Source of the DNA: Pseudomonas sp. S30
GTDB lineage: Bacteria > Pseudomonadota > Gammaproteobacteria > Pseudomonadales > Pseudomonadaceae
Length of the DNA stretch: 64,000 nucleotides
Assembly: GCF_016518545.1 (NCBI RefSeq)
Contig: NZ_JACVTO010000012.1
Span: 1 to 64,000 of the forward strand
Reading direction: 5' to 3'
The notes beneath the pieces are model-generated. The model was not told the DNA's origin. It was given only the letters and a program-made list of their open reading frames with translations, and did no database searches. A program made the position numbers and the translations under genes. Of the stretch, positions 4,166 to 19,262 are shown one piece after another (the stretch's first letter is position 1; every line of letters starts with the position of its first letter).

Positions 4166-4443
4166 GTGGGTGCCGCAGCCGATGGTGATGATGGACACTC
4201 GGCAGCGCAGATGAAAGGGATTATCATCCGTTTCACCTGATCGCTCCGAGGCTCTGCGAACGTTGTACCGCCTTCGCACTCCAACACGTCTATCCCTGCG
4301 ACACACCGCCCCGTCCCGGGCCGTGCCGTCGAGCCGCACGCCCTGTGGACCGGTGCTTCGAGCTGCCTTGCGCTCGCCCTCCCCTGTGCTGAAGCGGCCG
4401 GACCTCGTGTCCCCGAATTCCGTAAAACTTGTGAGATATTCCC

Positions 4444-5739
4444 ATGACTCATCGCATCGTGATTGTCGGCGGCGGCGCCGGCGGCGTGGAACTGGCGACC
4501 CGCCTGGGTAAAAGCCTCGGCAAGCGCAAGCAGGCCGAGATCACTCTGGTCGACGCCAACCTGACGCACATCTGGAAACCGCTGTTGCACGAGGTGGCGG
4601 CCGGTTCGCTGAATTCGTCCGAGGACGAGCTGAACTACGTGGCCCAGGCCAAGTGGAACCACTTCAATTTCCAGCTGGGCCGCATGAGCGGCCTGGACCG
4701 TGAAACCAAGCGCATCCAACTGGCCGCGACCCTGGATGAAGACGGCCGCGAGCTGCTGCCGGCGCGCACCCTGGGCTATGACACCCTGGTGATCGCCGTG
4801 GGCAGCAACACCAACGACTTCGGCACCCTGGGCGCAGCGCAGCATTGCCTGTTCCTGGACAGCCGCAAGCAGGCCGAGCGCTTCCATCAGCAACTGCTCA
4901 ACCACTACCTGCGCGCCCATGCCGGCGACGCGGCGAGCGAGAAGATCAGCGTGGCGATCGTCGGCGCCGGAGCCACCGGCGTGGAACTGGCGGCCGAATT
5001 GCACAACGCGGCGCAGGAGCTGGCGGCCTACGGGCTGGACCGGATCCGCCCGGAAGACATGCACATCACCCTGATCGAGGCCGGCCCGCGCGTGCTGCCG
5101 GCGCTGCCGGAGCGCATCAGCCAGCCGGTGCACAAGACCCTGGAGAAACTTGGGGTGAAGGTGATGACCAACGCCTCGGTGAGCGAGGTGACCGAGGATG
5201 GGCTCAAGACCGCTGGCGGCGAAGTGATCCAGGCCAGCCTCAAGGTGTGGGCGGCAGGCATTCGTGCGCCGGGCTTCCTCAAGGACATCGACGGGCTGGA
5301 AACCAACCGCATCAACCAGCTGGTGGTGCGCCCGACCTTGCAGACCACCCGGGACGACGACATCTTCGCCTTCGGCGACTGCGCCGCGTGCCCGCAACCG
5401 GACAGTGACCGCAATGTGCCGCCGCGCGCGCAGGCGGCGCACCAGCAGGCCTCGTTGCTGGCCAAGAGCCTCAAGGCACGGCTGGAGAACAAGCCATTGG
5501 CCACTTACACCTACAAGGACTACGGCTCGCTGGTGTCGCTGTCGCGCTTCTCGGCGGTGGGCAACCTGATGGGCAACCTGACCGGCAGCGTGATGCTGGA
5601 GGGTTGGCTGGCGCGGATGTTCTATGTGTCGTTGTACCGGATGCACCAGATGGCGTTGTATGGGGTGTTCCGCACGGCGATGCTGATGCTCGGCAGCAAG
5701 CTGGGCCGCAGCACCGAGCCGCGCCTCAAGCTGCACTGA
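4444..5739 (+). CDS. ndh: Type II NADH dehydrogenase (NDH-2)
   Basis: A 431-residue peripheral membrane flavoprotein that oxidises NADH and reduces quinone without pumping protons. Two dinucleotide-binding GxGxxG motifs are visible: IVGGGAGGVELATRLG at the N-terminus for FAD and VAIVGAGATGVELAAEL near residue 170 for NADH. The segment DDDIFAFGDCA near residue 305 is the conserved FAD-contact motif of this family. The C-terminal amphipathic region (LARMFYVSLYRMHQMALYG) fits membrane association. It lies 278 bp downstream of the DUF1780 gene and probably has its own promoter. Confidence 0.95.
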   Translation: MTHRIVIVGGGAGGVELATRLGKSLGKRKQAEITLVDANLTHIWKPLLHEVAAGSLNSSEDELNYVAQAKWNHFNFQLGRMSGLDRETKRIQLAATLDEDGRELLPARTLGYDTLVIAVGSNTNDFGTLGAAQHCLFLDSRKQAERFHQQLLNHYLRAHAGDAASEKISVAIVGAGATGVELAAELHNAAQELAAYGLDRIRPEDMHITLIEAGPRVLPALPERISQPVHKTLEKLGVKVMTNASVSEVTEDGLKTAGGEVIQASLKVWAAGIRAPGFLKDIDGLETNRINQLVVRPTLQTTRDDDIFAFGDCAACPQPDSDRNVPPRAQAAHQQASLLAKSLKARLENKPLATYTYKDYGSLVSLSRFSAVGNLMGNLTGSVMLEGWLARMFYVSLYRMHQMALYGVFRTAMLMLGSKLGRSTEPRLKLH

Positions 5740-5787
5740 GGGAGGGGGCGGGGGCGGCTGCCAGCGGCTCCCGCCTACCGGCTGGCT

Positions 5788-5802
5788 CTGTCTGAAAAAC
5801 CT
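5788..5802. repeat. Left copy of a 15-bp direct repeat flanking the accessory block
   Basis: CTGTCTGAAAAACCT here is repeated exactly at 29168-29182. With three mismatches the similarity extends to about 23 bp. The copy covers the phnN stop codon. It could mark an insertion boundary or be a dispersed intergenic motif. Confidence 0.5.
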
Positions 5803-6352
5803 AGCCGTAAAGGTGCGCGAGCAGCCGTGACACGGTGTCGGCCAATGGCCCGGAATTATCCAGCACCCGCAGGCCCGGCTCGGCCTCGCGCGCCTCGCTG
5901 GCGAAGCGGGCGTTGCGCGCCAGGCGTGCCTGCACCTCCTCCAGCGTTTCCCGCCCGCGATCCAGCAGGCGCTGGCGCAGCACGTCCTGGGCGACGCTGA
6001 GCAGCACCACCTGCAATGCCGGATAACGCTCTCGGGCCTGGTTCAGGTAGCCGCGCGAGCCGTTGACCAGCACGTCGCGCCCCTGCGCCAGCCAGTCGTC
6101 TATCACCCGTGGAATGCCATAGTGCAAGCCATTGGCCTGCCAGTGCAGGGCAAATTCGCCTTGTTCGCGCATCTGTTCGAACTGCGCGGTGCTCACGGCC
6201 ATGGCGGCCTCGCCGGTGGCCTCGGCGGAGCGGGTGATGACCCGCCGGGCGATGCACGCCCCCCTGGCCGTAAGCGGTTCGCGGGCCGCATCCAGCAAGC
6301 TGTCCTTGCCCGAGCCGGACGGCCCGATGAGGTAGATCAACCTGCCTGCCAT
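5801..6352 (-). CDS. phnN: Ribose 1,5-bisphosphate phosphokinase PhnN
   Basis: A protein of 183 residues of the guanylate-kinase-like P-loop family that makes PRPP from ribose 1,5-bisphosphate, normally within the phosphonate C-P lyase pathway. It has a Walker A motif GPSGSGKDS near residue 9 and the family-typical RVITR segment. I start it at the ATG at 6352 because a GGGGGAA Shine-Dalgarno precedes it; the frame stays open to 6403 but has no better start. No other phn gene is nearby, so it is an orphan copy. Its stop codon lies inside the left copy of the 15-bp direct repeat that bounds the accessory block. Confidence 0.88.
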   Translation of the reverse strand: MAGRLIYLIGPSGSGKDSLLDAAREPLTARGACIARRVITRSAEATGEAAMAVSTAQFEQMREQGEFALHWQANGLHYGIPRVIDDWLAQGRDVLVNGSRGYLNQARERYPALQVVLLSVAQDVLRQRLLDRGRETLEEVQARLARNARFASEAREAEPGLRVLDNSGPLADTVSRLLAHLYG

Positions 6353-6499: not shown

Positions 6500-6515
6500 T
6501 AGCACATGCGTACTA
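6500..6515. promoter_or_regulatory. Palindromic operator candidate, site 1 (autotransporter promoter)
   Basis: TAGCACATGCGTACTA is an imperfect 16-bp palindrome with TAGC/TAGT half-sites. It recurs twice at 10827-10856 and in perfect form at 15747-15762, each time upstream of a gene of this block. Its right half overlaps a -10-like TACTAT. It lies 119 bp before the autotransporter ATG. Confidence 0.6.
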
Positions 6516-6634
6516 TTTTCAGCGCGTCGACCCCTCCCGATACTTCCCCTGTTAACCCGTTGCACACAAGGAACGCCCTCGCCCACCGGGCTGGCAGCCA
6601 CTTGCGTGGCCACTATGGAGTATCTGGAGTCACT

Positions 6635-9600
6635 ATGAACCCCTTATTCAGACTATCCCCGCTCACCTTCGCGATCACGCTCGCCGTGATGCAGAATGCG
6701 CACGCGGCGGACTACACCTTGACCAGTGGACAGGAAACCTGGAGCAGCGATCGCGTGATCGACGGCTCCATACAGATCCGTCCCAGCAATGGCGTGCCGG
6801 CCACCTTGACCATCAACAGTGGCGCCGATGTCATCAGCCAGGGCGGCCGCGTCGGTGGCGTGTCGAGCAACAGCGCAGACTCCGCCGCCATGGCCACCGT
6901 GGTGGTCGAAGGCGCTGGCAGCCGCTGGGTAGTACCGCGCAGCAACGCCGTGCTGGGCAATACCATCGTCATTGGTGGCTCAGGCCAGGGCACGCTCAAT
7001 GTGCTCAACGGCGGCGAGGTGTCGGTACGCGATCTGCAGCTCAGTGACAATGGCAACGCCGGCAACCAGTTCTCCCGCGCCAACCTGCTGGTCGACGGCC
7101 AGGGCTCGAAGGTGGACACGGTCAACGTGACTTCAGGTGGGGTGTTCCTCTACGACTCGCGCATCACCTTGCAGAATGGCGGACAACTGAGCAGCGAAAA
7201 GGTCGCCATCAACTCGATCAGCGACCTCTCCGGCGCAGGCACCCGCTGGGACAACACCGGCACGTTCAGGAACCGCAACGACCTGACCGTGCGCGATGGG
7301 GCCGTGCTCACCACCGATTCCATCGCCCTGGGCTCGGCCAACATCGACCGCAATACCGTCGTCAACGTGACCGGGGAAGGTACCCGCCTGAGCACCCGAG
7401 CGATGACCCTCGGTACCACCACCTCCACCACCAATCTGGTATTGGCCAATGGTGCAGAGCTGAGCAGCACCGAAGGGATCGACATCAGTGAGCTGACCAG
7501 CATCAACTCAGCCGGTCGTGGCACCCTGAGCATTGGCGGCGCCGCGGTCCGGAACGACGACCTGACCGACATCGACGCCATCACCGCAGGCACTGCGCAA
7601 GCGGCCGGCCGCCTCGACCCGCAGAGCGCGATCCGCTTCGGCGCCAGCGGTGGCGCCGTGGCCTTCAACCATACCGACAGCGACCTGCAGGTGAGCAACG
7701 CCATCAGTGGCGCGGGCCGGATCTACTCGTTCAGCGGCAACACCACCTTGAGCGGCGACCTCACCGGGCTGTCCGGCAGCACCGTGGTGCGCGGGGGGCG
7801 CTTGGTACTGGCCGGCAACGTCGACCAGACCAACCCGCGCGGCACCTCGCTGCTGAGCGTCGGCAACGGCACCCTGGTGGTGAACGGCATCGTCGGCCAC
7901 ACCGACAGCACCGGCGCCTACAGCAACCGCGCCCAGGTACTGGACGGCGGCGTGCTGGCCGGTACTGGGCAGATCGGCAACACCCAGGTCGCCTCGGGCG
8001 GTACGCTGTCGCCGGGCGAAGGGGCGCTGGGCACCCTGTCGATCAACGGCAACCTGGAGATGGCGGACGGATCGCGCTATGCCGCCGACATCGCTGGCGA
8101 CGGCGGTGCCGACCGGGTCAACGTGACCGGTACGGCGACCCTGCGCGGCACCCGCGTGGACGTCACCACCCTCAACGAAGCCCAAAGCTACCAGAACGGC
8201 CAGACCTACACCCTGCTCGCCGCGCAAGGGGGCCTGGTCGATGGCGCCGCGGCAGGCACGGCCTACGCCCAGGCGTTCACCAACTCGGCGTTCCTCAACG
8301 TCAGCCTGCAACGTACGGCCAACGAACTGAACCTGACCATCGCGCAGAAGACCACCACCCCCGAGCCACCGGTCGAACCGCCCGTCGAGCCGCCGGTGCA
8401 GCCACCTGTGGAGCCGCCCGTCGAGCCGCCGGTGCAGCCGCCTGTTGAGCCGCCCGTCGAGCCACCGGTACAGCCGCCCGTCGAGCCACCCGTCGAGCCG
8501 CCGGTGCAGCCACCGGTAGAACCACCGGTCCAGCCACCGGTAGAGCCGCCGGTCCAGCCACCGGAAACCGGCGGTGGTTCGGGCACGCCAGGCATCTTCC
8601 AGACCGTCGCGCTGACCCAGAACCAGTGGAACACCGCCGGCGCCCTGAGCGTGCTGCAACAAAGCGGCGACCCGCTGCGCCTGTACAACAATCTGCTGGT
8701 GCTCGATGCCGACAGCGCCCGCAACGCCATCGACCAGCTTTCCGGCGACTTCCACAGCAGCACCGGCACCGCGCTGATCACCAACAGCCAAGTGGTCTCC
8801 GGCGTGCTGGGGACCCGCCTGCGCGGCCTGCTCGACAGCGGCACCGTGCGCATGCCGCTGGGCGCGTCGAGCTTCATGCCGACCACGCCTGAAGCCCCGG
8901 GCGGTGCCTGGGCACAGACCTTCGGCAACTGGTCGCGCACCGACGGCGGCAACGGCGCCAGTGGCCTGCACCAGAAGACCGGTGGTGTGCTGGTCGGTGC
9001 CGACGGCAGCATCACGCCAGACTGGCGCGCCGGGGTGTACGGCGGCTACAGCCGCTCGAAATTCGACGCCGACGACCGCGATGCCAAGGGCAACAGCGAC
9101 AACTACCACCTGGGCCTGTACACCGGTGCCCAGCTCGACGCCCTGCGCCTGAGCGCGGACGTCGGCTACACCTGGCACAAGCTCGACAGCACCCGCAACG
9201 TGGCCTTCGCCGGCTTCGACGATCACCTCAAGGGCAAGCGCGACGCCAACACCCTGCAAGCCAGCGGCGAAGCGGCCTACCGCATCGGCCTGGGCGCGGT
9301 GGCGCTGGAGCCGTTCGTGGGCGTGTCCTACGTCAAGTACGACGCCGACAGCTTCCGTGAGAAAGGCGGCCCTGCGGCGCTGTCGGTGTCCAGCGAGAAG
9401 CAGGACACCTGGTTCTCCACCGTGGGCCTGCGCGCTTCCACCCACACCCGCGTCGCCGAGCGCGACACCGAGCTGTACGGCTCGCTGGGCTGGCGTCGTG
9501 CCTACGGCGATCTGGACCCGCGCAACGAGCAGTCCTTCGCCGGTGGACCGAATTTCGAGGTGCAGGGCATCGCCCAGACACGCAACGTGGCACTGACCGA

Positions 9601-9718
9601 AGTGGGGGCGAAGGTGCGCCTGACGCCGCAGACCGACCTGGGGCTGTCGTACCAGGGCCAGTTTGGCACGGACACGCGTTTCCATTCGGTGAACGCGGGC
9701 GTCACGGTACGCTTCTGA
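6635..9718 (+). CDS. Type Va autotransporter with proline-rich linker
   Basis: A 1027-residue secreted surface protein. I start at the ATG at 6635 (GGAG about 6 bp upstream), which gives a clean signal peptide ending near residue 24 (NAHA). The passenger (about 25-575) is a beta-helix-type sequence rich in Gly, Thr, Ser and Asn, with autotransporter-associated strand repeats such as TTLSGDLTGLSGSTVVRGGRLVLAGNV split over residues near 370. Residues about 578-643 are a PPVE/PPVQ repeat array. Residues from about 750 form the 12-stranded beta-barrel domain, ending in the terminal aromatic VTVRF expected for BAM recognition. No protease triad is evident, so an adhesin or biofilm role is more likely than an enzyme. 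The palindrome at 6500 and a terminator at 9754-9798 make it a single-gene transcript. Confidence 0.9.
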   Translation: MNPLFRLSPLTFAITLAVMQNAHAADYTLTSGQETWSSDRVIDGSIQIRPSNGVPATLTINSGADVISQGGRVGGVSSNSADSAAMATVVVEGAGSRWVVPRSNAVLGNTIVIGGSGQGTLNVLNGGEVSVRDLQLSDNGNAGNQFSRANLLVDGQGSKVDTVNVTSGGVFLYDSRITLQNGGQLSSEKVAINSISDLSGAGTRWDNTGTFRNRNDLTVRDGAVLTTDSIALGSANIDRNTVVNVTGEGTRLSTRAMTLGTTTSTTNLVLANGAELSSTEGIDISELTSINSAGRGTLSIGGAAVRNDDLTDIDAITAGTAQAAGRLDPQSAIRFGASGGAVAFNHTDSDLQVSNAISGAGRIYSFSGNTTLSGDLTGLSGSTVVRGGRLVLAGNVDQTNPRGTSLLSVGNGTLVVNGIVGHTDSTGAYSNRAQVLDGGVLAGTGQIGNTQVASGGTLSPGEGALGTLSINGNLEMADGSRYAADIAGDGGADRVNVTGTATLRGTRVDVTTLNEAQSYQNGQTYTLLAAQGGLVDGAAAGTAYAQAFTNSAFLNVSLQRTANELNLTIAQKTTTPEPPVEPPVEPPVQPPVEPPVEPPVQPPVEPPVEPPVQPPVEPPVEPPVQPPVEPPVQPPVEPPVQPPETGGGSGTPGIFQTVALTQNQWNTAGALSVLQQSGDPLRLYNNLLVLDADSARNAIDQLSGDFHSSTGTALITNSQVVSGVLGTRLRGLLDSGTVRMPLGASSFMPTTPEAPGGAWAQTFGNWSRTDGGNGASGLHQKTGGVLVGADGSITPDWRAGVYGGYSRSKFDADDRDAKGNSDNYHLGLYTGAQLDALRLSADVGYTWHKLDSTRNVAFAGFDDHLKGKRDANTLQASGEAAYRIGLGAVALEPFVGVSYVKYDADSFREKGGPAALSVSSEKQDTWFSTVGLRASTHTRVAERDTELYGSLGWRRAYGDLDPRNEQSFAGGPNFEVQGIAQTRNVALTEVGAKVRLTPQTDLGLSYQGQFGTDTRFHSVNAGVTVRF
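8366..8563 (+). repeat. Tandem repeat encoding (PPVE)2PPVQ units
   Basis: About 198 bp encode a run of PPVE and PPVQ tetrapeptides, first as a 12-residue (36-bp) unit PPVEPPVEPPVQ and then as PPVEPPVQ pairs. It links the autotransporter passenger to its barrel. The DNA is degenerate at third positions but repetitive enough to slip in multiples of 12 bp without breaking the frame. Confidence 0.9.
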
Positions 9719-9753
9719 GTCGTCGTGGCGGCCTTTCCAGGTCGCCGCTCAGC

Positions 9754-9798
9754 CGCCCGGGCCCGACGCTGGATGACAGCGCCAGGCCCGGGCGTTTT
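9754..9798 (+). terminator. Rho-independent terminator after the autotransporter
   Basis: The arms CGCCCGGGCC (9754-9763) and GGCCCGGGCG (9785-9794) form a 10-bp stem, with an inner CGCTG/CAGCG pair, followed by TTTT. It ends the autotransporter transcript just before the OmpA-like gene. Confidence 0.85.
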
Positions 9799-9829
9799 CA
9801 TGAAACCGCCCTGCCCCCACGAGTCCCCC

Positions 9830-10813
9830 ATGAAAAAGACCTTGTCCACTGCCCTGGCAGTGACGATCGGCCTGTGCGTGACCATCAGCTGGCTGCCAGA
9901 GGCAACGGCTGATGTCGCCCCCACGGCTACCAAGAACCCGGCACCTTTCGAAGCCGCCAGGCTGCCGGTATCCAGCGTCGCCCTGGGCGCCTTTCCCTAC
10001 CTGTCCCTGCCTGACGGCTACACCACCGGCAGCACACCGGAGGTCATCGACTTCGATGAGATTCCGTTCTGGACCGGCGACCGGCTACAGCCGGTGGAAG
10101 GTCGCGCATGGTCGGCCAACATCACGGCGGCCGAAGGCAGAACCTTCTCTCAGCTGGAATTGACGCGCAATATCGAGGCGCTAGTAAGGGCCATGGACGG
10201 TCAGAAGATCTTCGACGGCAGGTTCGACCAAACCACTCTCCAAGCCCTGGACACCTGGCCACGGGAGTTCACCCAACGCTACAACAGCGGTCTGGGCGAT
10301 GTGTGGAACAACCCGGCGCAGGTCTTCGTGGTCCATCGCGCCGACCGCGACATCTGGATTCACCTGTGCAGCTACGCCTACGGCGCCGGCCTGCTGATCG
10401 CCGAAAGCAAGCCGCTGGACATCACCGCCCGGCTATTGCCGGCCGAACAGCTCAAGGCGCAGATGGACGCCAACGGCAAAGTGTCCTTGAACGTGAACTT
10501 CGCGACCGACCAAACGCAGATCCTGCCGACTTCGCGGCCGCAACTCGATCAGGTCGTGCAGTGGCTGCAGGCCGAGCCGTCGCTGCACTTGCAGATCGAT
10601 GGTTACACCGACGACCAGGGCGATGCAGCCCATAACCAGGCGCTCTCCGAGGGCCGGGCCGGGGCGGTGATGGCGCTGCTGGTGACCCAAGGGATCGAGC
10701 CGGGCAGGCTGTCCTCGGCAGGCCTGGGCGCCGCCAATCCGGTCGCCGACAACGGCTCGCCGGCAGGTCGTGCGCAGAATCGTCGAGTGGAACTGGTCAG
10801 GCGCGCGCCCTGA
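9830..10813 (+). CDS. Secreted OmpA-domain (peptidoglycan-binding) protein
   Basis: A protein of 327 residues. The ATG at 9830 gives the signal peptide MKKTLSTALAVTIGLCVTIS, cleaved near ATA-DVA; an in-frame ATG at 9800 is less likely. There is no lipobox cysteine. The central region has no family I recognise. The C-terminal 110 residues are an OmpA-like peptidoglycan-binding domain: VNFATDQTQILPTSRPQLDQ, IDGYTDDQGDAAHNQALSEGRA and the final AQNRRVELV are the standard signatures. It follows the autotransporter terminator closely and lies directly before the palindromes at 10827-10856. It may anchor or support surface structures of the block; this role is inferred. Confidence 0.85.
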   Translation: MKKTLSTALAVTIGLCVTISWLPEATADVAPTATKNPAPFEAARLPVSSVALGAFPYLSLPDGYTTGSTPEVIDFDEIPFWTGDRLQPVEGRAWSANITAAEGRTFSQLELTRNIEALVRAMDGQKIFDGRFDQTTLQALDTWPREFTQRYNSGLGDVWNNPAQVFVVHRADRDIWIHLCSYAYGAGLLIAESKPLDITARLLPAEQLKAQMDANGKVSLNVNFATDQTQILPTSRPQLDQVVQWLQAEPSLHLQIDGYTDDQGDAAHNQALSEGRAGAVMALLVTQGIEPGRLSSAGLGAANPVADNGSPAGRAQNRRVELVRRAP

Positions 10814-10826
10814 TCTTTCATCGGAC

Positions 10827-10856
10827 TAGCACACCTGTACTAGCCCACGTGCGCTA
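10827..10856. promoter_or_regulatory. Two overlapping palindromic operator candidates, sites 2a and 2b
   Basis: TAGCACACCTGTACTA (10827-10842) and TAGCCCACGTGCGCTA (10841-10856) share two bases, so they are two 16-bp palindromes 14 bp apart. Both match the sites at 6500 and 15747. They lie 74 bp or more before the response regulator ATG at 10930 and just after the OmpA-like gene. Confidence 0.6.
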
Positions 10857-10929
10857 TTTCTAATGCGTATCGAGTCCGACATCATCGACGCCAATCATTA
10901 TTGTGCCGAATGGATTCCACGTCCTCAAA

Positions 10930-11562
10930 ATGACTTGCCGAATTATTGTGGCAGATGAACATCCGCTATATCGCGAGGGGATGATTGGGCTACTCAAATC
11001 CTTGATCCCCGACGCGACCATCGCGCAAGCGGGACACTTCGAACAGGTGCGTTCGCTACTTGAGGACGCGCCGCCGGTGGTGATGTTGATGATCGAACTT
11101 CGCCTGCCCGGGCTAAGTGCCGTCGCCGAACTTTCCAAGTTGCGCCAGTTGCAGGAACGTTCATTGATCGTCATCGTCGTCTCCGCCATCGAAGACCCGG
11201 AGCTGGTCGAACTGATCATGGACACCGGCGTCAACGGTTTCATCGGCAAGAGTTGCTGCGCCGACCAGGTGCGCAAGACCATCAGCGCCATCCGCAAGGG
11301 CCAGGTGGTGGTCAATTGCCAGGCCGTCGAAGTGCAGGCCTGCGAAGCGGACGAGCAGACCGGTCGGCTGACCGCGCGCCAGCGTGAAGTCTGGCAACTG
11401 GTCGCCCAGGGCAAGACCAACAAGGAAATCGCCGCGGCACTGGAGATCTCACCCTACACCGTGCGTATTCACGTCTCGTCTCTGATACGCACGTTGAACG
11501 TGCCCAACCGCGCGGTGGCCGCCGCGCGCTTCGCCGGTCGCTACACCAGCCAGGCGCTGTAG
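10930..11562 (+). CDS. NarL/LuxR-type response regulator with Glu in place of the phosphoacceptor Asp
   Basis: A 210-residue regulator. An N-terminal receiver (about 1-120) is joined to a C-terminal LuxR helix-turn-helix ([25 protein letters not shown], split near residues 148-172). The start at 10930 ([10 protein letters not shown]) matches its paralogue at 14979 (MSCRIIVADD). Aligning the two puts Glu56 (codon GAA, in [10 protein letters not shown]) where the paralogue has Asp56 (SLILDLRFPG). The acidic pair is D9/E10 instead of D9/D10, while the switch Ser (VVSAIED) and the Lys (NGFIGKS) are kept. Without the Asp it cannot be phosphorylated in the normal way, and Glu may mimic the active state. 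It is divergent from the kinase pair downstream and sits behind the tandem palindromes. Confidence 0.9.
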
Positions 11563-11582
11563 CGGGCCGGCCGCTCGCGCCC

Positions 11583-13235
11583 TCAGGCTTCGCAGCGCTC
11601 GCCGGCGATGGCCTTGACCTGCTCCAGCAACACCGCGCGCAGCTCGGGCGGGCGTACCGGCTTGGCCAGTACGGAAATGTTCAGGTCCGCCACCAGCGCG
11701 CGAATGCGTGACATCTCGTGACCGGTCATGATCATCGCCGGCACGTCCCAGCCTCGCTGCCTGCGAATGGCGGCGATGCATTCGGCGCCGGAAATCCGCC
11801 GACCCAGATCGTAGTCGGCGATGATGATGTCGCACTCGGTGACCACGTTCAGCCCGTCGCTGTGTCCCTCGACCTCGCAGCCCCACTTCTCCAGCAGCGC
11901 CGAGGTGGCCATCAGCACACTGGCGTCGTCTTCCACCAGGCACACCCGCAGCCCCTGCAAACGATTCTGGGTGGGGATGGGCCGTGTTTTCTCGATGCCC
12001 GGCGCGGTGCGCACCAGCCCATGAACCGTGGCCCGGGTACCGTGGCCCTCGCGGGAATCCAGCTGCACCTGCAAGTCGATCAGCCGGCCGATGCGCTGGA
12101 CGATGGACAGCCCCAGGCCCAGGCCCTCGACGTCCTTGTCGCGCTCATGGCGCACCCGGTAGAACTCCTTGAACACTTCGGGCAGGTGCTCGCGGGCAAT
12201 GCCGCGGCCCTTGTCGTAGAGCACGATGGCCAGCCCTGTGCCGCGCCGCCGCACGCCGATCAGCACCGGTTGGCCGGCGGCGTACTTGAGGGCGTTGGAC
12301 AGCAGGTTCTGCACCATGGTGGTCAGCAGCCCCGGATTGACGTTCACCCAGTGCCGGCAGGGTCGCAGGCGCAGCTCGACGCCCGCCCAGCGGGCCGCTT
12401 CCTGGTTCTGCTTGACCACATCCTGCAACAGCGCGTTGAGGTTCACGGGCTCGGATTGCGGCTCGAACTGGCCGTTGTCCAGGGTATAGATGTCCAGGAT
12501 GGAGCGGAACAGTTGCGAGACGGTGTGCAGCGAGCGGTCGATGTTGTCCACCAGTCGCAGCTCTTCGCGCCCCAGGTCGGCATCGCGCAGGCAGGCGGTG
12601 AACAGGCCAATAGAGTGGATCGGTTGGCGCAGGTCGTGACTGGCCTGGGCCAGGAAGCGGGACTTTTCCTGGTTGGCGGCCATGGCGTCCTGGGACGCCT
12701 GGCGCGTGCGCTTGAGCAGGATATCGGCGTAGGCCGGCACCACGATGGTGGTGACCATCAACGTCAGGAACATGAAGGGTTGCGAGTGCCAGTAGGGGTC
12801 GAACCAGAACACCAGCACCAGGGTGGCCAGCGCAATGACCGTGGCCCAGGCCAGGTAGCGCGAGCCGAAGCGCATGCCGTTGCCCAGGGTCACCCACAGC
12901 AACGCCGCGTAGATCGGCAACGCCGCCTCGCCCCCCAGCGCCAGGGCGAAGGCGATGCCGGCGTAGTCGTGGAGCATGGACAGCAGCCGTCGCCAGAAGA
13001 AATGCCCCGGCCAGCGCTTGATCGCCAGGCGCAGGAACACCGAGACCACGATGAAGGTGGCGATGTAGGTGACGATCGGCAGGTAGACCACCGCATGGTC
13101 GGCGCTGAGCAGGGCCAACGCCAGGATGTACAGCAGCGCCAGGCTACTGACGATCAGCCTCAGGGTGGCCTGGTCGACCTCGCTTTTCACCTCGGCCATG
13201 TTCAATGCACGGTGTCCCGCGCCAGCGCTGTTCAA
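11583..13235 (-). CDS. Hybrid sensor histidine kinase with C-terminal receiver (copy 1)
   Basis: A protein of about 550 residues. The N-terminal roughly 170 residues contain about six membrane helices and no periplasmic domain, so it senses in or near the membrane. HisKA has the H-box SHDLRQPIHS (H200), followed by a HATPase domain (NLLSNALKYA, YDKGRGIA, GLGLGLSIV) and a receiver (VCLVEDD, IIADYDLG, switch Thr in IMTGHE, Lys in LAKPVRP). I chose the TTG at 13235 because AAGGAGG lies 6-7 bp upstream; an ATG at 13199 lacks a Shine-Dalgarno. It follows copy 2 by about 21 bp and is probably cotranscribed with it. The kinase core is almost identical to copy 2 at DNA level, while the sensor part has diverged. 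Likely partners are the LuxR regulators on either side. Confidence 0.92.
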   Translation of the reverse strand: MNSAGAGHRALNMAEVKSEVDQATLRLIVSSLALLYILALALLSADHAVVYLPIVTYIATFIVVSVFLRLAIKRWPGHFFWRRLLSMLHDYAGIAFALALGGEAALPIYAALLWVTLGNGMRFGSRYLAWATVIALATLVLVFWFDPYWHSQPFMFLTLMVTTIVVPAYADILLKRTRQASQDAMAANQEKSRFLAQASHDLRQPIHSIGLFTACLRDADLGREELRLVDNIDRSLHTVSQLFRSILDIYTLDNGQFEPQSEPVNLNALLQDVVKQNQEAARWAGVELRLRPCRHWVNVNPGLLTTMVQNLLSNALKYAAGQPVLIGVRRRGTGLAIVLYDKGRGIAREHLPEVFKEFYRVRHERDKDVEGLGLGLSIVQRIGRLIDLQVQLDSREGHGTRATVHGLVRTAPGIEKTRPIPTQNRLQGLRVCLVEDDASVLMATSALLEKWGCEVEGHSDGLNVVTECDIIIADYDLGRRISGAECIAAIRRQRGWDVPAMIMTGHEMSRIRALVADLNISVLAKPVRPPELRAVLLEQVKAIAGERCEA

Positions 13236-13256
13236 TGACAACCTCCTTGTTGAATG

Positions 13257-14879
13257 TCAGACCGCCAGGCGGGCCTGCTCCATGGCCTTGACCTGTTCGA
13301 GCAACACCGCGCGCAGTTCGGGCGGGCGCACCGGCTTGGCCAGCACCGAGATGTTCAGGTCGGCCACCAGCGCCCGGATACGCGCCATCTCGTGGCCGGT
13401 CATGATCATCGCCGGCACGTCCCAGCCACGCCGCTGGCGAATGGCCGCGATGCATTCGGAGCCGGAAATCTGCGTGCCTAGATCATAGTCGGCAATGATG
13501 ATGTCGCACTCGGTGATCACGTTCAGCCCATCGCTATGGCCCTCCACTTCGCAGCCCCACTTCTCCAGCAGCGCCGAAGTGGCCATCAGCACACTGGCGT
13601 CGTCCTCCACCAGGCACACACGCAGGCCGTGCAGACGGCTCTGGATCGGCGCGGGACGGGCGACTTCCTGACGCGCGGCGATGACATTCAGGCCGTGAAT
13701 GGTCGCGCAGGTGCCGTGGTCCACGCGCGAGTCCAGGCGCACCTGCAGGTCGAGCAACTGGCCGATGCGCCTGACGATGGACAGCCCCAGGCCCAGGCCC
13801 TCGACGTCCTTGTCGCGCTCATGGCGCACCCGGTAGAACTCCTTGAACACGTCCGCCAGATGCTCGCGGGCAATGCCGCGGCCCTTGTCGTAGAGCACGA
13901 TGGCCAGCCCTGTGCCGCGCCGCCGCACGCCGATCAGCACCGGTTGGCCGGCGGCGTACTTGAGGGCGTTGGACAGCAGGTTCTGCACCATGGTGGTCAG
14001 CAGCCCCGGATTGACGTTCACCCAGTGCCGGCAGGGTCGCAGGCGCAGCTCGACGCCCGCCCAGCGGGCCGCTTCCTGGTTCTGCTTTACCACATCCTGC
14101 AACAGCGCGTCGAGGTTCACGGGCTCGGATTGCGGCTCGAACTGGCCGTTGTCCAGGGTGTAGATGTCCAGAATGGAGCGGAACAGTTGCGAGACGGTGT
14201 GCAGCGAGCGGTCGATGTTGTCCACCAGTCGCAGCTCTTCGCGTCCCAGGTCGGCATCGCGCAGGCAGGCGGTGAACAGGCCGATGGAGTGGATCGGCTG
14301 GCGCAGGTCGTGACTGGCCTGGGCCAGGAAACGGGACTTTTCCTGGTTGGCGGCCATGGCTTCCTGCGACGCGATGCGCGTGCGTTTGAGCAGGATGTGC
14401 GCATAGGCTGGCACCACGATGGTGGTGATCATCAGCATCAGGAACATGTACGGCTGCGAGTGCCAGTATGGGTTGACGTTGAACACGACGACCAGCATCG
14501 ACAGGGCGATCACAGTGGCCCACGCCAGGTACTGCGAGCCGAAGCGCATGCCGTTGCCCAAGGTGACCCACAGGAGTGCGGCGTAGACCGGAAGTGCACC
14601 CTCGCCACCTACGCACAGGGCAAAGCAGATGCCGGCATAGTCGTGGAACATGGCGAACAGACGGCGCCAGAAGAAATGCCCGGGACGGCGCTTGATCAAC
14701 ATGCGCAGCGGCACCGCCACCGTGATGAAGAAGGCCATGTACCAGAGGATCGGCGAATACAGGGCGAAATCGTTCGACGGCAGGCAGGCGACGATGAAGA
14801 TGTACAACGAAGCGCACGTACTGACCGTCAGGCGCAAGGTAGCCTGGTCCAGCTCGCTGTTTTTCTCCGTCATGTTCAT
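13257..14879 (-). CDS. Hybrid sensor histidine kinase with C-terminal receiver (copy 2)
   Basis: A 540-residue paralogue of the adjacent kinase with the same order: membrane sensor region, HisKA (H190 in SHDLRQPIHS), HATPase and receiver (IIADYDLG, LAKPVRP). The start ATG at 14879 has GGAG 7 bp upstream. It is divergent from the response regulator at 14979, with 99 bp between them, and is the first gene of the two-kinase operon. The sensor part differs from copy 1 (for example LPSNDFALYSPILW against LSADHAVVYLPIVT), so the two probably detect different cues and feed the same output. Both carry receivers but no Hpt domain, so final transfer needs a direct kinase-regulator step or a separate Hpt. 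Confidence 0.92.
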   Translation of the reverse strand: MNMTEKNSELDQATLRLTVSTCASLYIFIVACLPSNDFALYSPILWYMAFFITVAVPLRMLIKRRPGHFFWRRLFAMFHDYAGICFALCVGGEGALPVYAALLWVTLGNGMRFGSQYLAWATVIALSMLVVVFNVNPYWHSQPYMFLMLMITTIVVPAYAHILLKRTRIASQEAMAANQEKSRFLAQASHDLRQPIHSIGLFTACLRDADLGREELRLVDNIDRSLHTVSQLFRSILDIYTLDNGQFEPQSEPVNLDALLQDVVKQNQEAARWAGVELRLRPCRHWVNVNPGLLTTMVQNLLSNALKYAAGQPVLIGVRRRGTGLAIVLYDKGRGIAREHLADVFKEFYRVRHERDKDVEGLGLGLSIVRRIGQLLDLQVRLDSRVDHGTCATIHGLNVIAARQEVARPAPIQSRLHGLRVCLVEDDASVLMATSALLEKWGCEVEGHSDGLNVITECDIIIADYDLGTQISGSECIAAIRQRRGWDVPAMIMTGHEMARIRALVADLNISVLAKPVRPPELRAVLLEQVKAMEQARLAV

Positions 14880-14978
14880 GCACCGGCTCCAGCGCGGGTT
14901 CGCGCCTGAAAGTTGGGAAACCCCAGGTAAACGTTTGCGTTACTATGCCCGCATTCGAGCGAGGAATGGATCTGGGAC

Positions 14979-15611
14979 ATGTCGTGCAGAATCATCGTGG
15001 CAGATGACCACCCGCTATTTCGCGAAGGCATGCTGCGCACGCTCGAAAGGCTGCTGCCCACTGCCCAGGTGGAACAGGCAGGCGACCTGGAAGCGGTGCT
15101 GAAACTCGCGCGCCAGGGCGATGAAATCGATTCGCTGATTCTCGACCTGCGTTTTCCCGGCCTCACTTCCCTCTCCGTCATCGGCCAACTTCGCGCAGAA
15201 TTCAAGCGAACCTCCATCATCGTGGTGTCGATGGTCGACGACCTGGATATCATTTCCCAGGTCATCGCCCAGGGCGCCGACGGCTTCATCGGCAAGAACG
15301 TCGATCCCGCGGGTATCGCCGAGGCCATCATGGCCATCCGCGAGGGCGAGGTGGTGGTGCGTTACAACCCGGAAAACCCGGTTCTGGATCCGAGCCTGTC
15401 AGCGCTCACGGTGCGGCAGAAACAGGTGCTCGGGCTGATTGCGGCCGGTAAGACCAACAAGGAAATCGCCAAGGAACTGGGCATATCGCCTTTTACCGTG
15501 CGCATTCACGTGTCCACGCTGCTCAAGGCCCTGGGTGTGCCGACGCGCGCGGCGGCGGCGGCCCAGTTCAGCAACTTCGCGAGCCTGTCGGGTTGGCCGC
15601 AAGAGCACTGA
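14979..15611 (+). CDS. NarL/LuxR-type response regulator with intact receiver
   Basis: A 210-residue regulator with a receiver domain (D9/D10 acidic pair, phosphoacceptor D56 in LILDLRFPG, switch Ser in VVSMVDD, Lys in FIGKN) and a LuxR helix-turn-helix ([26 protein letters not shown] region, about residues 145-170). It is paralogous to the regulator at 10930, but its active site is complete. It is transcribed away from the two hybrid kinases, the most likely cognate phosphodonors. It is a candidate protein for the TAGC palindromes of this block, although that link is inferred. Confidence 0.92.
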   Translation: MSCRIIVADDHPLFREGMLRTLERLLPTAQVEQAGDLEAVLKLARQGDEIDSLILDLRFPGLTSLSVIGQLRAEFKRTSIIVVSMVDDLDIISQVIAQGADGFIGKNVDPAGIAEAIMAIREGEVVVRYNPENPVLDPSLSALTVRQKQVLGLIAAGKTNKEIAKELGISPFTVRIHVSTLLKALGVPTRAAAAAQFSNFASLSGWPQEH

Positions 15612-15930
15612 AGTGCAACGACCGAGCATGCGGAAGTGGCCAAGTTCTCGCCCCACAAGTGCCTATCAGGTGATCGAGCCCGCGCAGTTCGCCGACCGCC
15701 GATGATGGCCGCCGGCAATTATATACAAGCGGCCCTCAAGGGCACTTAGCACATGTGTGCTATAGCCTAACGCGACCGGCGCGAATACCCTTTCCCCGCA
15801 CTTTAAACTCTTGAAATGACTGACCCAGCCGATACTTTGCTATATCGCTGGATGTGCCCCCGTGCGCGTCCCGCTCGATGCCCGTCGACAACTTCAGCTG
15901 GCGCAGTCGCTCTCCTCTACAGGTGATGTC
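15612..15930. other. 319-bp intergenic region with the perfect palindrome and lipoprotein promoter
   Basis: No coding sequence is supported here. The region contains the perfect palindrome at 15747-15762 with a -10-like TGCTATAG overlapping it, AT-rich patches around 15718-15728, and the ribosome binding site AGGTGATG just before the lipoprotein start. No terminator for the regulator at 15611 is obvious. Confidence 0.6.
15747..15762. promoter_or_regulatory. Perfect palindromic operator candidate, site 3 (lipoprotein promoter)
   Basis: TAGCACATGTGTGCTA is a perfect 16-bp inverted repeat and the best copy of the motif seen at 6500 and 10827-10856. Across the four sites, TAGC, CA, G and CTA are invariant. 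It lies 168 bp upstream of the lipoprotein start at 15931. Confidence 0.65.
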
Positions 15931-16434
15931 ATGGCGCATGCAAACATTAAACTCATGAATGTCGGATTCGCCCTGTGCCTGATGACTGGCGCACTCGCCG
16001 GCTGCAATGGCTCGGGCAACATGGACGTGATGAAGTCCTTGAACGCATTCAATTCCGGCTCGCAGAAATATGACGTGGCTTATTTGAAGAGCACCCTGAT
16101 TCCGGGCAAGACCACCAAATACCAAGTGCAGCAATTGTTCGGTGCACCCGCGCAACAGTCCCTGGATTCGACCAGCCGTAGCAATGGTTCCAACTGGACC
16201 TACAGCAAGAGCGAAGAAGGCCTGGACAAGTATATGGCACTGGCTCACAAGTATGTGTCCACCGAAAACAGCTTGAAGATGTACAACGCCACCGCACAGC
16301 TGTCCAAGGCCCAGGGCGTGATGAACGATGTGGGCGGTGTCGCCGGCGTCACCGCACCGAGCGGTCAGCCCCAGGGCTCGCAGTTGATCATCTACTTCAA
16401 GGACGATGTCGTGGATTACTACCGGCTCTACTGA
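15931..16434 (+). CDS. Small lipoprotein with BamE/SmpA-like domain
   Basis: A protein of 167 residues. The start at 15931 has AGGTGATG upstream; an ATG at 15955 is also possible. The signal ends in a lipobox, TGALAGC, so the mature protein starts with a lipidated Cys. The segment LIPGKTTKYQVQQLFGAP matches the hallmark of the SmpA/OmlA/BamE fold (pGmt..qV...lG.P). The rest is Gln/Ser/Asn-rich and ends in DDVVDYYRLY. BamE proteins assist outer-membrane protein assembly; this one is island-borne, so a dedicated role for the autotransporter or the usher is conceivable but unproven. It has the strongest palindrome of the block in its promoter. Confidence 0.75.
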   Translation: MAHANIKLMNVGFALCLMTGALAGCNGSGNMDVMKSLNAFNSGSQKYDVAYLKSTLIPGKTTKYQVQQLFGAPAQQSLDSTSRSNGSNWTYSKSEEGLDKYMALAHKYVSTENSLKMYNATAQLSKAQGVMNDVGGVAGVTAPSGQPQGSQLIIYFKDDVVDYYRLY

Positions 16435-16519
16435 GGCCGCGCGCGGTTCGCCGTCCGTGGCAGGCTGCGCCGGACGCCTGGCACGGGCCGGGCGGTGAAT
16501 GCGGGACCTGGCACGAACT

Positions 16520-16529
16520 GGAATATTCC
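16520..16529. promoter_or_regulatory. GGAATATTCC palindrome upstream of the EAL gene
   Basis: GGAATATTCC lies within ACTGGAATATTCCGG, 65 bp before the EAL start. A near copy lies 77 bp before the fimbrial subunit gene at 17886. The shape recalls the GAATATTC core of RcsB-type boxes. Confidence 0.45.
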
Positions 16530-16594
16530 GGCAACGGCCAGCAGGGGGGCTCGCTACAGTCGACCTCCCGCAACGACCCGCCGGCCTTCCTGCA

Positions 16595-17476
16595 ATGACC
16601 CGTGCCTTCATCCGCGACTCTTCGCGCGAACACAGATCCCGATCATCGCTGCCCCGCGACTTCACCAGCAGCGCTCCTTTGGCCTACGCGCAGCCGCAGA
16701 TCAACCTGCGCTCGCTGGAACTGGAGGGCTTCGAGATCCTGGCTCGCTGGGCCCATCCGCAGCACGGCCTGCTGCACCCGGCCCAGGTGCTGCCTCATAT
16801 CGGTTTCATCCAGCACCTCAATGCCTTGACCGAGGCCTTGCTGCGCCAGACCTTGGCGCACATGGCCAGCTATCAGCCGCCTGTCGCAGACTGCCGAGTA
16901 GGCTTGAATGTCGCGCTGGGACAGCTGACCGATGACGCGTTCGTCGAGCGCCTGTGCCAGCTGTGCGATCAACGCACCTCGGGCCTGAGCCTCGTCCTGG
17001 AGATCACCGAGCAAGCGTCGATCGCCAGCGAACGGACGCCGGGCGCTGCGCAGCGCGCGCTGCAGCGACTGACCGGCTGCGGCTGGCTGATCTCACTGGA
17101 CGACTTCGGCACTGGCACCTCGACCTACGAACGGCTCTGCACCTTGCCGGTGAGCGAGATCAAGATCGAGCGGCACTTCATCGAAAAACTCGGCGCGCCC
17201 AACGCCCGCGAAGAGATCATCGTGCAGCACCTGGCGCGGCTGGCCGCCGAACTCGGCGTGGACTGCGTCGCCGAGGGGATCGAGCGACGCGAGCAGTTGC
17301 TGACGGTACAGGCCCTGGGTTGCAGCCGTGGCCAGGGCTACTTGTTCAGCCCGCCCATGGCCTTGCAGAGCCTGCACAGCTGGTGCGCGGGGTGGCAGAC
17401 GGCGCGCTGCCGCACGCAGTTTCTCGAGCAACTGCGCCAGGGCGCGGAGTTCACCGACGGGGCGAGCCGGTCATGA
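16595..17476 (+). CDS. EAL-domain cyclic-di-GMP phosphodiesterase
   Basis: A 293-residue cytoplasmic protein consisting almost only of an EAL domain. The metal- and substrate-binding residues are kept: the signature is E47-I-L in GFEILARW, then the Asn in GLNVAL, Glu in LEITEQ, DDFGTGTS, Lys in IKIERHF, VAEGIE and GCSRGQGYLF with its Gln. An active c-di-GMP phosphodiesterase is therefore likely. I place the start at the ATG at 16595 because the palindrome at 16520 lies inside the longer open frame that begins at 16499. No receiver or PAS domain is attached. A receiver-like protein is encoded immediately downstream with an ATGA overlap. In P. aeruginosa, similar EAL proteins (RocR, PvrR) sit beside cup fimbrial genes and their sensors, as here. 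Confidence 0.88.
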   Translation: MTRAFIRDSSREHRSRSSLPRDFTSSAPLAYAQPQINLRSLELEGFEILARWAHPQHGLLHPAQVLPHIGFIQHLNALTEALLRQTLAHMASYQPPVADCRVGLNVALGQLTDDAFVERLCQLCDQRTSGLSLVLEITEQASIASERTPGAAQRALQRLTGCGWLISLDDFGTGTSTYERLCTLPVSEIKIERHFIEKLGAPNAREEIIVQHLARLAAELGVDCVAEGIERREQLLTVQALGCSRGQGYLFSPPMALQSLHSWCAGWQTARCRTQFLEQLRQGAEFTDGASRS

Positions 17477-17880
17477 AACCGACCTGCCCGCTGTCGGTGT
17501 TCGTCTGCACCAGCAGCCCTTATCGACGCGCCACCTTGCAGAGCAAGCTCAACAACCTGCGCCAGTTTCACATCCATCACTGCTCCAGCCTGCAGCCCGC
17601 CCCGCTGATGCTCGCCCAGGCGCCCATCGGCCTGCTGTTGATCGATCCCGCCGAGCTCTACGACCTGGCCCCGCTACTGGTCGCGGCGCCAAGGCCGGTA
17701 CGTGCGGTGCTGTGCACGCGAACCGTCGAGCGATTCGAGCAGCGCGTGCTGGCCCGCCTGTTGCGCGCCACGGGCGCGGAGTTGCTGGGTGAGCTGCCTG
17801 CGGATTGCCCTGTGGCCAGCCGCCAGCGCGCACTGTGGCTTCACCTGCAAGCGCTGGCGCGCTCGGCGACACCGCGCTGA
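17473..17880 (+). CDS. Small receiver-like protein, translationally coupled to the EAL gene
   Basis: A 135-residue protein starting at an ATG that overlaps the EAL stop (ATGA). I do not recognise a named family. The alternation of short hydrophobic strands (LSVFVCT, IGLLLID, VRAVLCT) with helices looks like a degenerate response-regulator receiver, with D58 in GLLLIDPAEL where the phosphoacceptor would be. The N-terminal acidic pair and the conserved Lys are not evident. RocR-like proteins carry a receiver fused in front of EAL; here the two appear separate and in reverse order. It may be a binding partner or regulator of the phosphodiesterase. Function is unproven. Confidence 0.65.
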   Translation: MKPTCPLSVFVCTSSPYRRATLQSKLNNLRQFHIHHCSSLQPAPLMLAQAPIGLLLIDPAELYDLAPLLVAAPRPVRAVLCTRTVERFEQRVLARLLRATGAELLGELPADCPVASRQRALWLHLQALARSATPR

Positions 17881-17884
17881 AGAC

Positions 17885-17896
17885 TGGAATTTTCCA
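17885..17896. promoter_or_regulatory. TGGAATTTTCCA palindrome upstream of the fimbrial operon
   Basis: TGGAATTTTCCA is a near-perfect inverted repeat within ACTGGAATTTTCC, which shares ACTGGAATwTTCC with the site at 16516-16529. It lies 76 bp before the first fimbrial gene and just after the receiver-like gene. Confidence 0.45.
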
Positions 17897-17972
17897 AGGA
17901 TCGGCGGCCCGTCCGACTTTTATTCTGGTCATGTAACCACCCTACCTCTAACACCCAAGGAGTACATGACCC

Positions 17973-18521
17973 ATGTTTCACCCCCGTGCATGCCTGACCC
18001 TCAGCCTTCTGGCGCTGGCAATGTCCACCACGGCCGCGCAGGCGAGCGACGGCAAGATCACCTTCAACGGTTCGATCACCGATGCTGCCTGTGCCATCGC
18101 GATGGGCAGCGAAGACCTGACCGTCAATCTGCCTCAGGTCACCGCCCATGCATTGCCGAAGAAGAACGCCAAAGCCGGGAGCACCCCGTTCCAGATCAAG
18201 CTGGACGACTGCTCGGTGGAAACCTTGAAGAACGCCACCATCACCTTCAACGGCCGGCCCGATGACAGCGATGAGACCCTGCTGCACCTCAGTGGCGCCA
18301 AAGGCGTGGCGCTACAGCTGGGCTACGAGGACGGGTCATTGCTGAAGCTCAATACAGCCAGTACGGCGATGAAGCTCAACAAGTTCAGCAACGCGTTCGA
18401 CCTGACCGCTGCCTACGTCAGGACCGCCGCCGATGCTACCCAAGGCACAAACGCCAACGACGCCAACTTCACCGTCGGCGCGGTCAGCGGCGTCGCCGAC
18501 TTCACCATCAACTACAAGTAA
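17973..18521 (+). CDS. Major fimbrial subunit (type 1 fimbrial protein family)
   Basis: A 182-residue pilin of the chaperone-usher class. A signal peptide of about 25 residues ends at AQA. The mature part begins with GKITFNGSITDAACAI, whose Cys pairs with a second Cys about 40 residues on (LDDCSVET), as in FimA-type subunits. It closes with the typical DFTINYK pattern of the terminal beta strand used for donor-strand exchange. It is the first gene of a four-gene operon (subunit, chaperone, usher, adhesin) and has CAAGGAG upstream. Confidence 0.93.
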   Translation: MFHPRACLTLSLLALAMSTTAAQASDGKITFNGSITDAACAIAMGSEDLTVNLPQVTAHALPKKNAKAGSTPFQIKLDDCSVETLKNATITFNGRPDDSDETLLHLSGAKGVALQLGYEDGSLLKLNTASTAMKLNKFSNAFDLTAAYVRTAADATQGTNANDANFTVGAVSGVADFTINYK

Positions 18522-18553
18522 CGTCGGCCCGCACCCGCAGCCTGGAGATCGAG

Positions 18554-19246
18554 ATGAACCACGCCTTACTCGCCAGCCTGGTGCTGCCATGGCTGATGGC
18601 AGCCCCCATGGTCCAGGCTGCGGTCGCCGTCGGCGCGACCCGGGTGATCTACAACGCCGCCCACAAGGAAGCCAGCCTCGGGGTGAGCAACAAGGGCGAA
18701 GGGCTTCCTTACCTCATCCAGTCGCGGGTGCTGCCCTATGCCAGCGACCAGCAGAACGACCATCCCGACTTCATCGTCACCCCGCCGTTGTTCAGGCTCG
18801 ATCCGAACAGCGAGGGCGTGCTGCGCATCATCGCCACCCCGCAGAGCCTTTCCGACACCGAGGAAACCCTGCTCAGGCTGGAGGTCAAGGCCATCCCGGC
18901 GCTGCCCGAGCAGGCGGACAATCCGAACATGCTGCAGATCGCCATCAAGACCTCGCTGAAACTGTTCTACCGACCCGCAGCCCTGCAAGGCGACCTGCCC
19001 GGCGCCGTGCAAGCGTTGCGCTGGCGAAGCGAGAACGGTCGGCTGAGCGTGTTCAATCCTACCGGCTTTCACGTGGTGGTCGACAGGCTGACCTTGAACG
19101 GCCAGGCCGTCACCACTGATGCTCCGGTGCTCGCGCCGCACCGCAGCACCGCGTTGTCCGTCGCCACGCGCGCCGGCGCGCGCTTGCACATGGACTACAT
19201 CAACGACTACGGAGGCGTTGCCGGCACTGCGTACACCGTAGAGTGA
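18554..19246 (+). CDS. Periplasmic fimbrial chaperone (PapD/FimC type)
   Basis: A 230-residue secreted protein with a signal peptide ending near VQA. The first immunoglobulin-like domain contains VGATRVIYNAAHKEASLGVSN and the chaperone signature region FRLDPNSEGVLRII, where donor-strand residues and the conserved Arg/Lys that anchor the subunit C-terminus reside. The second domain has NPTGFHVVVDRLTLNG. It lies 32 bp after the pilin gene and 16 bp before the usher, in one operon. Confidence 0.93.
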   Translation: MNHALLASLVLPWLMAAPMVQAAVAVGATRVIYNAAHKEASLGVSNKGEGLPYLIQSRVLPYASDQQNDHPDFIVTPPLFRLDPNSEGVLRIIATPQSLSDTEETLLRLEVKAIPALPEQADNPNMLQIAIKTSLKLFYRPAALQGDLPGAVQALRWRSENGRLSVFNPTGFHVVVDRLTLNGQAVTTDAPVLAPHRSTALSVATRAGARLHMDYINDYGGVAGTAYTVE

Positions 19247-19262
19247 TCCGGCGCTTCCTGGT

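Follow-up and report, generated by a model that had tools for sequence, protein, structure and literature searches.

Pseudomonas sp. S30 (NCBI RefSeq assembly GCF_016518545.1, contig NZ_JACVTO010000012.1) harbors a block of surface and signalling genes in which a 16-bp palindrome occurs four times. The block lies within positions 1 to 64,000 of the contig, a stretch of 64,000 nucleotides which is called the window below; the whole genome comprises 5,474,368 bases. The four palindromes are candidate operators and are numbered 1 to 4 on the plus strand. Operator 1 (TAGCACATGCGTACTA, 6500-6515) is found 119 bp upstream of the ATG of an autotransporter gene (6635-9718, plus strand; Pfam Autotransporter, 2.2e-71; TIGR01414), a predicted target, which is followed, possibly in the same operon, by a gene for an OmpA-family protein (9830-10813, plus strand; Pfam OmpA, 2.2e-20). 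In the autotransporter, passenger and beta-barrel are separated by a long repeat of the PPVEPP type; a T5SS/PEP-CTERM repeat is present as well.

Operator 2 (TAGCACACCTGTACTA, 10827-10842) and operator 3 (TAGCCCACGTGCGCTA, 10841-10856) overlap by 2 bp and are the first and the second half of a conserved double operator, which precedes the gene for response regulator 1 (RR1; 10930-11562, plus strand; Pfam GerE and Response_reg). RR1 is of the NarL/LuxR type, has Glu where the phospho-acceptor Asp is expected (LMIELRLPG) and is predicted to be autoregulated. On the minus strand there are genes for two hybrid histidine kinases: HK1 (11583-13199), which is PA1396-like (membrane input domain, HisKA, HATPase, REC), and its paralogue HK2 (13257-14879), almost the same as HK1 in the kinase core and more diverged in the input domain. 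HK2 is adjoined by a second DNA-binding NarL/LuxR response regulator, RR2 (14979-15611, plus strand), which is of the PA1397 type, retains the phospho-acceptor Asp and is our favoured candidate for the protein that binds the operators. Operator 4 (TAGCACATGTGTGCTA, 15747-15762) lies 168 bp upstream of the ATG of another predicted target, a BamE/SmpA-like lipoprotein (15931-16434, plus strand) with a lipobox recognized by eye and a Pfam BamE match below the cut-off (E 0.044).

The four 16-mers were reported by a first-pass annotation made from the letters of the window, and all were found at its coordinates. Its asymmetric consensus did not hold up: at up to two mismatches it matches the window 18 times versus 14.8 times expected, which is not significant. 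The form that the sites share is a 7-2-7 inverted repeat, TAGCACA-NN-TGTGCTA, to which they have 0, 1, 2 and 2 mismatches; operator 4 is a perfect match, as the annotation had recognized in calling it a perfect inverted repeat, and operator 1 has two mismatches. The symmetric repeat TAGCACANNTGTGCTA was therefore used instead. At up to two mismatches it occurs exactly four times in the window, bearing out the claim that no comparable copy exists elsewhere in it; 0.04 matches are expected (mean of 100 dinucleotide shuffles, none of which reached four). Many equally good matches at unrelated positions, which the annotation had regarded as fatal to its proposal, were not found in the genome: at the same threshold there are five places, the four sites of the window included, the fifth (C9:95130) being located inside an rplB-like open reading frame (ORF). 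If the places were random, four out of five falling within 9.3 kb would have a probability bounded at about 1e-7. At up to three mismatches the whole genome has 48 places versus 66 for a reversed control, so there is no excess of weak sites. Because the consensus was derived from these very sites, independent proof has to come from conservation elsewhere, and because the looser consensus is at chance level, the case rests on the symmetric form together with that conservation.

For the analysis of conservation the best 80 of 434 matches to RR2 were kept as loci, 78 of them from Pseudomonas and two from Pantoea. Relatives of both regulators inside these loci were sought by tblastn, and genes were called by a simple script, which misses genes in low-GC stretches. 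At least one site at up to two mismatches was found in 58 of the 80 loci, and none of 83 sites (window included) lies inside a gene called in this way. Where a target could be assigned, the genes that the sites precede are orthologous ones, in part those of the window: relatives of the BamE-like lipoprotein (L001-L005, L007, L008 and L020; a similar protein is present in L125), orthologues of the OmpA-family protein (L001-L003), the autotransporter, at sites orthologous to operator 1 (L014 and L124), RR1 (L001-L004 and L007) and RR2 itself (L017 and L019). In loci of the fluorescens type the site precedes a small lipoprotein, mostly at 125-132 bp from its start; this lipoprotein was not found in the genome of S30 in a search that had no positive control. 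Minimal loci of this type have the site near a regulator of the RR2 type; tblastn detected no other relative of RR1 or RR2 in them.

In 17 of the 22 loci lacking a site at up to two mismatches, the zone upstream of the small lipoprotein contains a decayed version (three to five mismatches; typically TCGTACATCCGCCCTA) with a −10-like hexamer behind it; these decayed sites were sought post hoc in this one zone after examples had been seen, and with no shuffled control. In most of the 22 loci nothing was found at three to four mismatches outside called genes. The loss of the sites from orthologous islands, the second outcome that would have spoken against the annotation, was looked for, and the sites turned out to be mostly retained, at up to two mismatches in 58 of 80 loci and decayed in 17 of the other 22. 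In the putida-type loci (part of L047-L080, around 7740-7870) the operator is decayed and the −10 hexamer is kept, though the recognition helix of the regulator is unchanged.

The association between site and regulator was examined in 119 sampled genomes from the genus, using the pattern TAGYMCANNTGKRCTA and counting RR2 relatives at E 1e-45 or better. The pattern is present in 29 genomes and an RR2 relative in 41. In 27 of the 29 pattern-bearing genomes RR2 is present as well, the pattern occurring in only two of the 78 regulator-free genomes (Fisher 2.5e-14, a value that is overstated because the genomes differ in make-up and are related rather than independent). For 26 of 45 sites the regulator is encoded on the same contig and no more than 10 kb away. 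The motif had been called private to the block; this is correct for the genome of S30 and not for the sample, in which the other 19 sites are more than 10 kb from the regulator or off its contig. These 19 sites could indicate that an unlinked transcription factor binds and that the two-component genes are merely its targets, as RR1 and, in L017 and L019, RR2 are themselves predicted to be. Such an arrangement is very improbable in view of the coincidence of pattern and RR2 in 27 of 29 genomes and of the symmetry of the site. Operators of the NarL/FixJ class are exemplified by those of NarL, two inverted heptamers spaced 7-2-7, and a 7-2-7 symmetry suits this class of regulator.

In genome G018 (L110-L113) nine of ten sites form two clusters far from the regulator, and several of them are located before lipoprotein- or secreted-looking ORFs. 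One site of this genome is at the beginning of an ORF whose putative product, a metallopeptidase, carries a peptidoglycan-binding domain.

The sites at 10827 and 10841 constitute one 30-bp double operator whose halves share two bases. Its skeleton, TAG..CA..TG..CTAG..CA..TG..CTA, is invariant in seven of seven aligned RR1 promoters despite differing flanks, and, with no mismatch allowed, it matches six times in 398 genomes, each time just upstream of an RR1 orthologue. RR1 itself matches at E 1e-60 in 10 of the 398 genomes; in the tree one of the ten (L145) groups with RR2, which leaves RR1 in nine, three of which (L142-L144) have no double operator. (The locus sets overlap, the RR1 proteins of L138-L141 being the same as those of L002, L001, L004 and L007.) Glu is found at the phospho-acceptor position in the window, in L001-L003, L020 and L137-L139 and also, elsewhere in the tree, in L142 and L143; Asp is found in L004, L007, L140, L141 and L144. 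This distribution implies at least two changes from Asp to Glu in RR1, or one reversal, the support of the tree being moderate there.

In view of these findings chance or a repeat artefact can be regarded as refuted and is left with next to no probability. It could appeal to the non-significance of the looser consensus in the window and to the weak genome-wide matches, which are not in excess; against it stand four sites where 0.04 are expected, their conservation in 58 of 80 loci and the invariance of the double operator in diverged promoters.

The recognition helices of RR1 and RR2 are nearly identical: the region [IV]SP[FY]TVR[IV]HVSxL[LI] is kept in 88 RR2-type and 8 RR1-type aligned rows (copies from the same locus counted), except in strain PA7, where the recognition region of RR2 differs and the site is also divergent (TAGTACCTATGTGCTA). 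Both regulators may therefore bind the operators. The phospho-acceptor Asp is kept in all aligned RR2 rows. In response regulators a Glu residue there often imitates phosphorylation, and RR1 may therefore be active without phosphate. One may ask whether RR1 (10930) is then the main binder, RR2 binding elsewhere or only fine-tuning. The near identity of the helices, the restriction of the double operator to RR1 promoters in the 398 genomes and the constitutive activity that Glu may confer would agree with this. We nevertheless judge it unlikely: RR1 was found in only nine of the 398 genomes, of these only G000 is among the 29 that have the single-site pattern, and in the minimal fluorescens-type loci, where tblastn did not find RR1, the site is near a regulator of the RR2 type. 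The proposal that a dedicated regulator encoded between the sites is responsible is supported, RR2 being favoured as the only type that tblastn detected in the minimal loci and as coincident with the pattern in nearly all genomes that have it, with the reservation that RR1 may bind too.

For the promoter geometry 77 sites were aligned, which we picked and oriented from neighbouring predicted targets; the rows include L117, which lacks a proper target on the strand in question, and the 3374 site of L111 with its three mismatches. From 76 of the 77 rows (10841 excluded) 36 non-redundant sites were derived. Directly after the repeat, at the place of the −35 region, the aligned sites have TTG-like bases, and a TA---T hexamer is found at approximately columns 40-45. 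A −10-like hexamer (at least four of six bases) starting 23-26 nt past the operator was found in 19 of the 36 non-redundant sites, most commonly 24-25 nt downstream; in shuffled downstream sequences the mean was 2.1, and none of 2000 sets reached 19. The observation that several sites overlap −10-like sequences, made in the first pass, is not a rule, the commonest position of such hexamers being downstream at the distance just given. In the window, operator 1 fits the spacing well, the predicted autotransporter promoter (6516-6544, plus strand) consisting of a −35-like TTTTCA (6516-6521), a 17-bp spacer and a −10-like GATACT (6539-6544). Operator 4 fits weakly: the putative promoter of the lipoprotein gene (15763-15791, plus strand), positioned by analogy with the aligned sites, has a −35-like TAGCCT at 15763 and a −10-like TACCCT at 15786 (three of six bases). 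The RR1 promoter has a spacing of its own. A consensus promoter scan detected no promoter at the operators.

We infer from these distances that the operator is centred at about −43, the position of a class II activator. The sites agree with activation by a regulator bound next to the −35 region rather than over the −10 hexamer. One might instead regard them as repressor sites, at which the bound regulator blocks RNA polymerase: operator 3 is located downstream of operator 2 and ahead of the predicted RR1 start, a place at which a bound protein could obstruct transcription. Repression is quite unlikely, however, because a −10 hexamer at a fixed distance in 19 of 36 sites, together with TTG-like bases at the place of the −35 region, is typical of class II activation.

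The kinases and regulators of the block are of the PA1396/PA1397 type and belong to a described family for the sensing of the diffusible signal factor (DSF). In P. aeruginosa DSF is sensed by PA1396, a known receptor for such signals between species (An et al., 2019, PMC6536496), and exchanging T121, L123, L128, P142, L148, M149, V154 or I155 for alanine lowers its sensitivity to DSF. The comparison was made with strain PA7 (L077), the sole match among 25 genomes of its genus; PA7 is now classed as P. paraeruginosa. Its kinase is the orthologue of PA1396: it matches 33 of the 33 published residue positions taken from PMC6536496, versus 0-5 of 33 in shifted registers. The kinases of the window are 52-54% identical to the PA7 kinase in the input domain, and both keep six of the eight DSF-sensitivity residues, the two others being conservative exchanges (L123I and I155V). 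All 96 aligned kinases (copies from the same locus counted) have Glu8. Pfam found HisKA, HATPase and REC in HK1 and HK2 and no match to Hpt, and the input domain contains several hydrophobic stretches. CqsS and LqsS, guessed from the topology to be the nearest relatives of the kinases, were dropped once PA1396 fitted.

In PA7 a VgrG gene comes after the RR2 orthologue, and a vgrG7 island is reported, in the accessible part of PMC9846239, to be inserted between the homologues of PA1397 and PA1398 in strains including PA7. The PA7 genome has only two places at up to two mismatches, both before ORFs that look by eye like lipoproteins, with no support from Pfam.

HK1 and HK2 share 94% protein identity in the kinase core and 70% in the input domain. 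The DNA of these tandem paralogues (11583-14879) is approximately 96-100% identical over about 500 bp of the core and approximately 50% identical in the first 200 aligned columns. Near-identical core DNA next to diverged input domains suggests that the core has been homogenised by gene conversion while the sensing tips differ.

The system of the block thus resembles PA1396/PA1397 in the domain order of the kinases, with membrane input domain and REC, in Glu8, in most of the DSF-sensitivity residues and in the adjacent NarL/LuxR regulator. It differs in having two kinases and two regulators, the change from Asp to Glu in RR1 and a multi-gene surface block as target. For PA1397 itself, the findings in PMC6536496 are stated to disagree with a simple scheme of direct pmr activation, further elements being involved. 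With NarL the operators share the two heptamers inverted around 2 bp, and NarL is the best-scoring NCBIfam model for RR2, below the cut-off; the heptamer is TAGCACA rather than that of NarL, and the predicted targets are not nitrate genes. As to the multi-helix kinases for fatty signals of the RpfC/CqsS type, PMC6536496 likens the input domain of PA1396 to RpfC and compares it with CqsS.

Taken together, we consider it likely that the four sites are operators of a PA1396/PA1397-type two-component system, bound by RR2, which activates the autotransporter, the lipoprotein and RR1. HK1 and HK2 would respond to a DSF-type fatty-acid signal, as orthology and the conserved residues suggest, and phosphate would pass to RR2; for P. 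aeruginosa a separate Hpt protein has been described (PMC4504480, accessible text). Dimers of RR2 would bind TAGCACA-NN-TGTGCTA next to the −35 region and attract RNA polymerase, and in this manner the autotransporter, the BamE-like lipoprotein and RR1 would be switched on, as the promoter geometry predicts. RR1 probably acts without phosphorylation and would feed back on its own double operator.

Several findings weigh against this proposal. In 22 of the 80 loci no site is present at up to two mismatches, and five of these (L006, L011, L035, L042 and L051) have no decayed site in the zone examined, the contig of L042 being short. The −10 hexamer is missing from the expected position in 17 of the 36 non-redundant sites, and in the window itself the lipoprotein promoter is weak and the RR1 promoter differs in spacing. 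The reversed control occurs in 59 of the 119 genomes versus 29 for the pattern, the raw counts thus lacking enrichment, and is negatively associated with RR2 (p 4.6e-4). Two genomes, G053 and G078, have the pattern and no regulator at the cut-off, and 10 of the 19 unlinked sites are in the one genome G018. PA1397 of P. paraeruginosa is less than 90% identical to its homologues (PMC12051241, accessible text), and PAO1 may therefore differ from PA7. DSF has been demonstrated as ligand for P. aeruginosa only.

In other species the sites precede further kinds of genes. In L115 a site lies before a FadL-type outer-membrane transporter (4423-5894; Pfam Toluene_X, 1.8e-114), and sequences similar by eye to this FadL are preceded by sites in L009, L010, L012, L013, L015 and L021. 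A FadL target fits a fatty-acid signal. Further lipoproteins are preceded by sites in G018 and G073. Genes for HlyD-type secretion proteins beside double-glycine peptides have a site in L120 and L122, and in L016 there are sites before HlyD and before such a peptide. Bacteriocin-like loci are possibly under the control of the same operator; their assignment is weak (Pfam E 0.009-0.024; NCBIfam TIGR03949 above the cut-off for L016 only). The loci of the double-glycine peptides are at 7298-8115 and 14148-15660 in L016, at 4612-8650 in L120 and at 623-4521 in L122; ABC exporters with a C39 peptidase are present in L120.

Downstream of the lipoprotein gene the block is adjoined by a region (16499-27333) with a gene for an EAL-domain protein (16499-17476), a cluster that by eye encodes a fimbrial subunit, a chaperone, an usher and an adhesin, and genes for a third NarL/LuxR regulator (approximately 22901-23623) and a BvgS-like kinase (23665-27333). 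The arrangement resembles the roc/cup loci. The scan of the window at up to two mismatches found no operator at the EAL protein, at the chaperone-usher cluster or at the BvgS-like kinase and its regulator; having been considered as part of the system, these genes were kept apart from it for this reason.

The first-pass annotation knew of no described regulator with this motif. For the operator this still applies, no published one for a PA1396/PA1397-type system having been found in the literature searched; a DNA affinity purification sequencing (DAP-seq) study of 55 regulators (NAR 2021) may contain a PA1397 motif. The system itself is a described family. The accessible text of PMC6536496 gives no operator for PA1397, the main texts of PMC8041468 and PMC7532196 contain neither TAGCAC nor GTGCTA (PA1397 was also sought in PMC8041468), and TAGCAC and PA1397 were not found in PMC13086498. 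Judged by the literature searched, neither the operator nor its regulon nor the RR1 branch seems to have been described.

It is conceivable, at somewhat less than an even chance, that the operator defines the missing direct regulon of PA1396/PA1397 across Pseudomonas, comprising envelope lipoproteins, adhesins, a FadL porin for fatty acids and bacteriocin-like peptides with their exporter, and that the clade of S30 gained a Glu-bearing regulator which reads the same operator and is self-controlled via the 30-bp double operator. If so, a fatty-acid signal from outside could set a phosphorylation-independent memory or limiter. A concrete operator would yield a short, testable list of PA1397 targets, which in PA7 are the two places before lipoprotein-looking ORFs, and in other species it would connect lipoproteins, adhesins, FadL and bacteriocin-like export with the sensing of fatty acids. 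Together with the kinase duplication, the change between Asp and Glu that recurs in RR1 would be a natural case of a sensor branch possibly freed from the need for phosphate.

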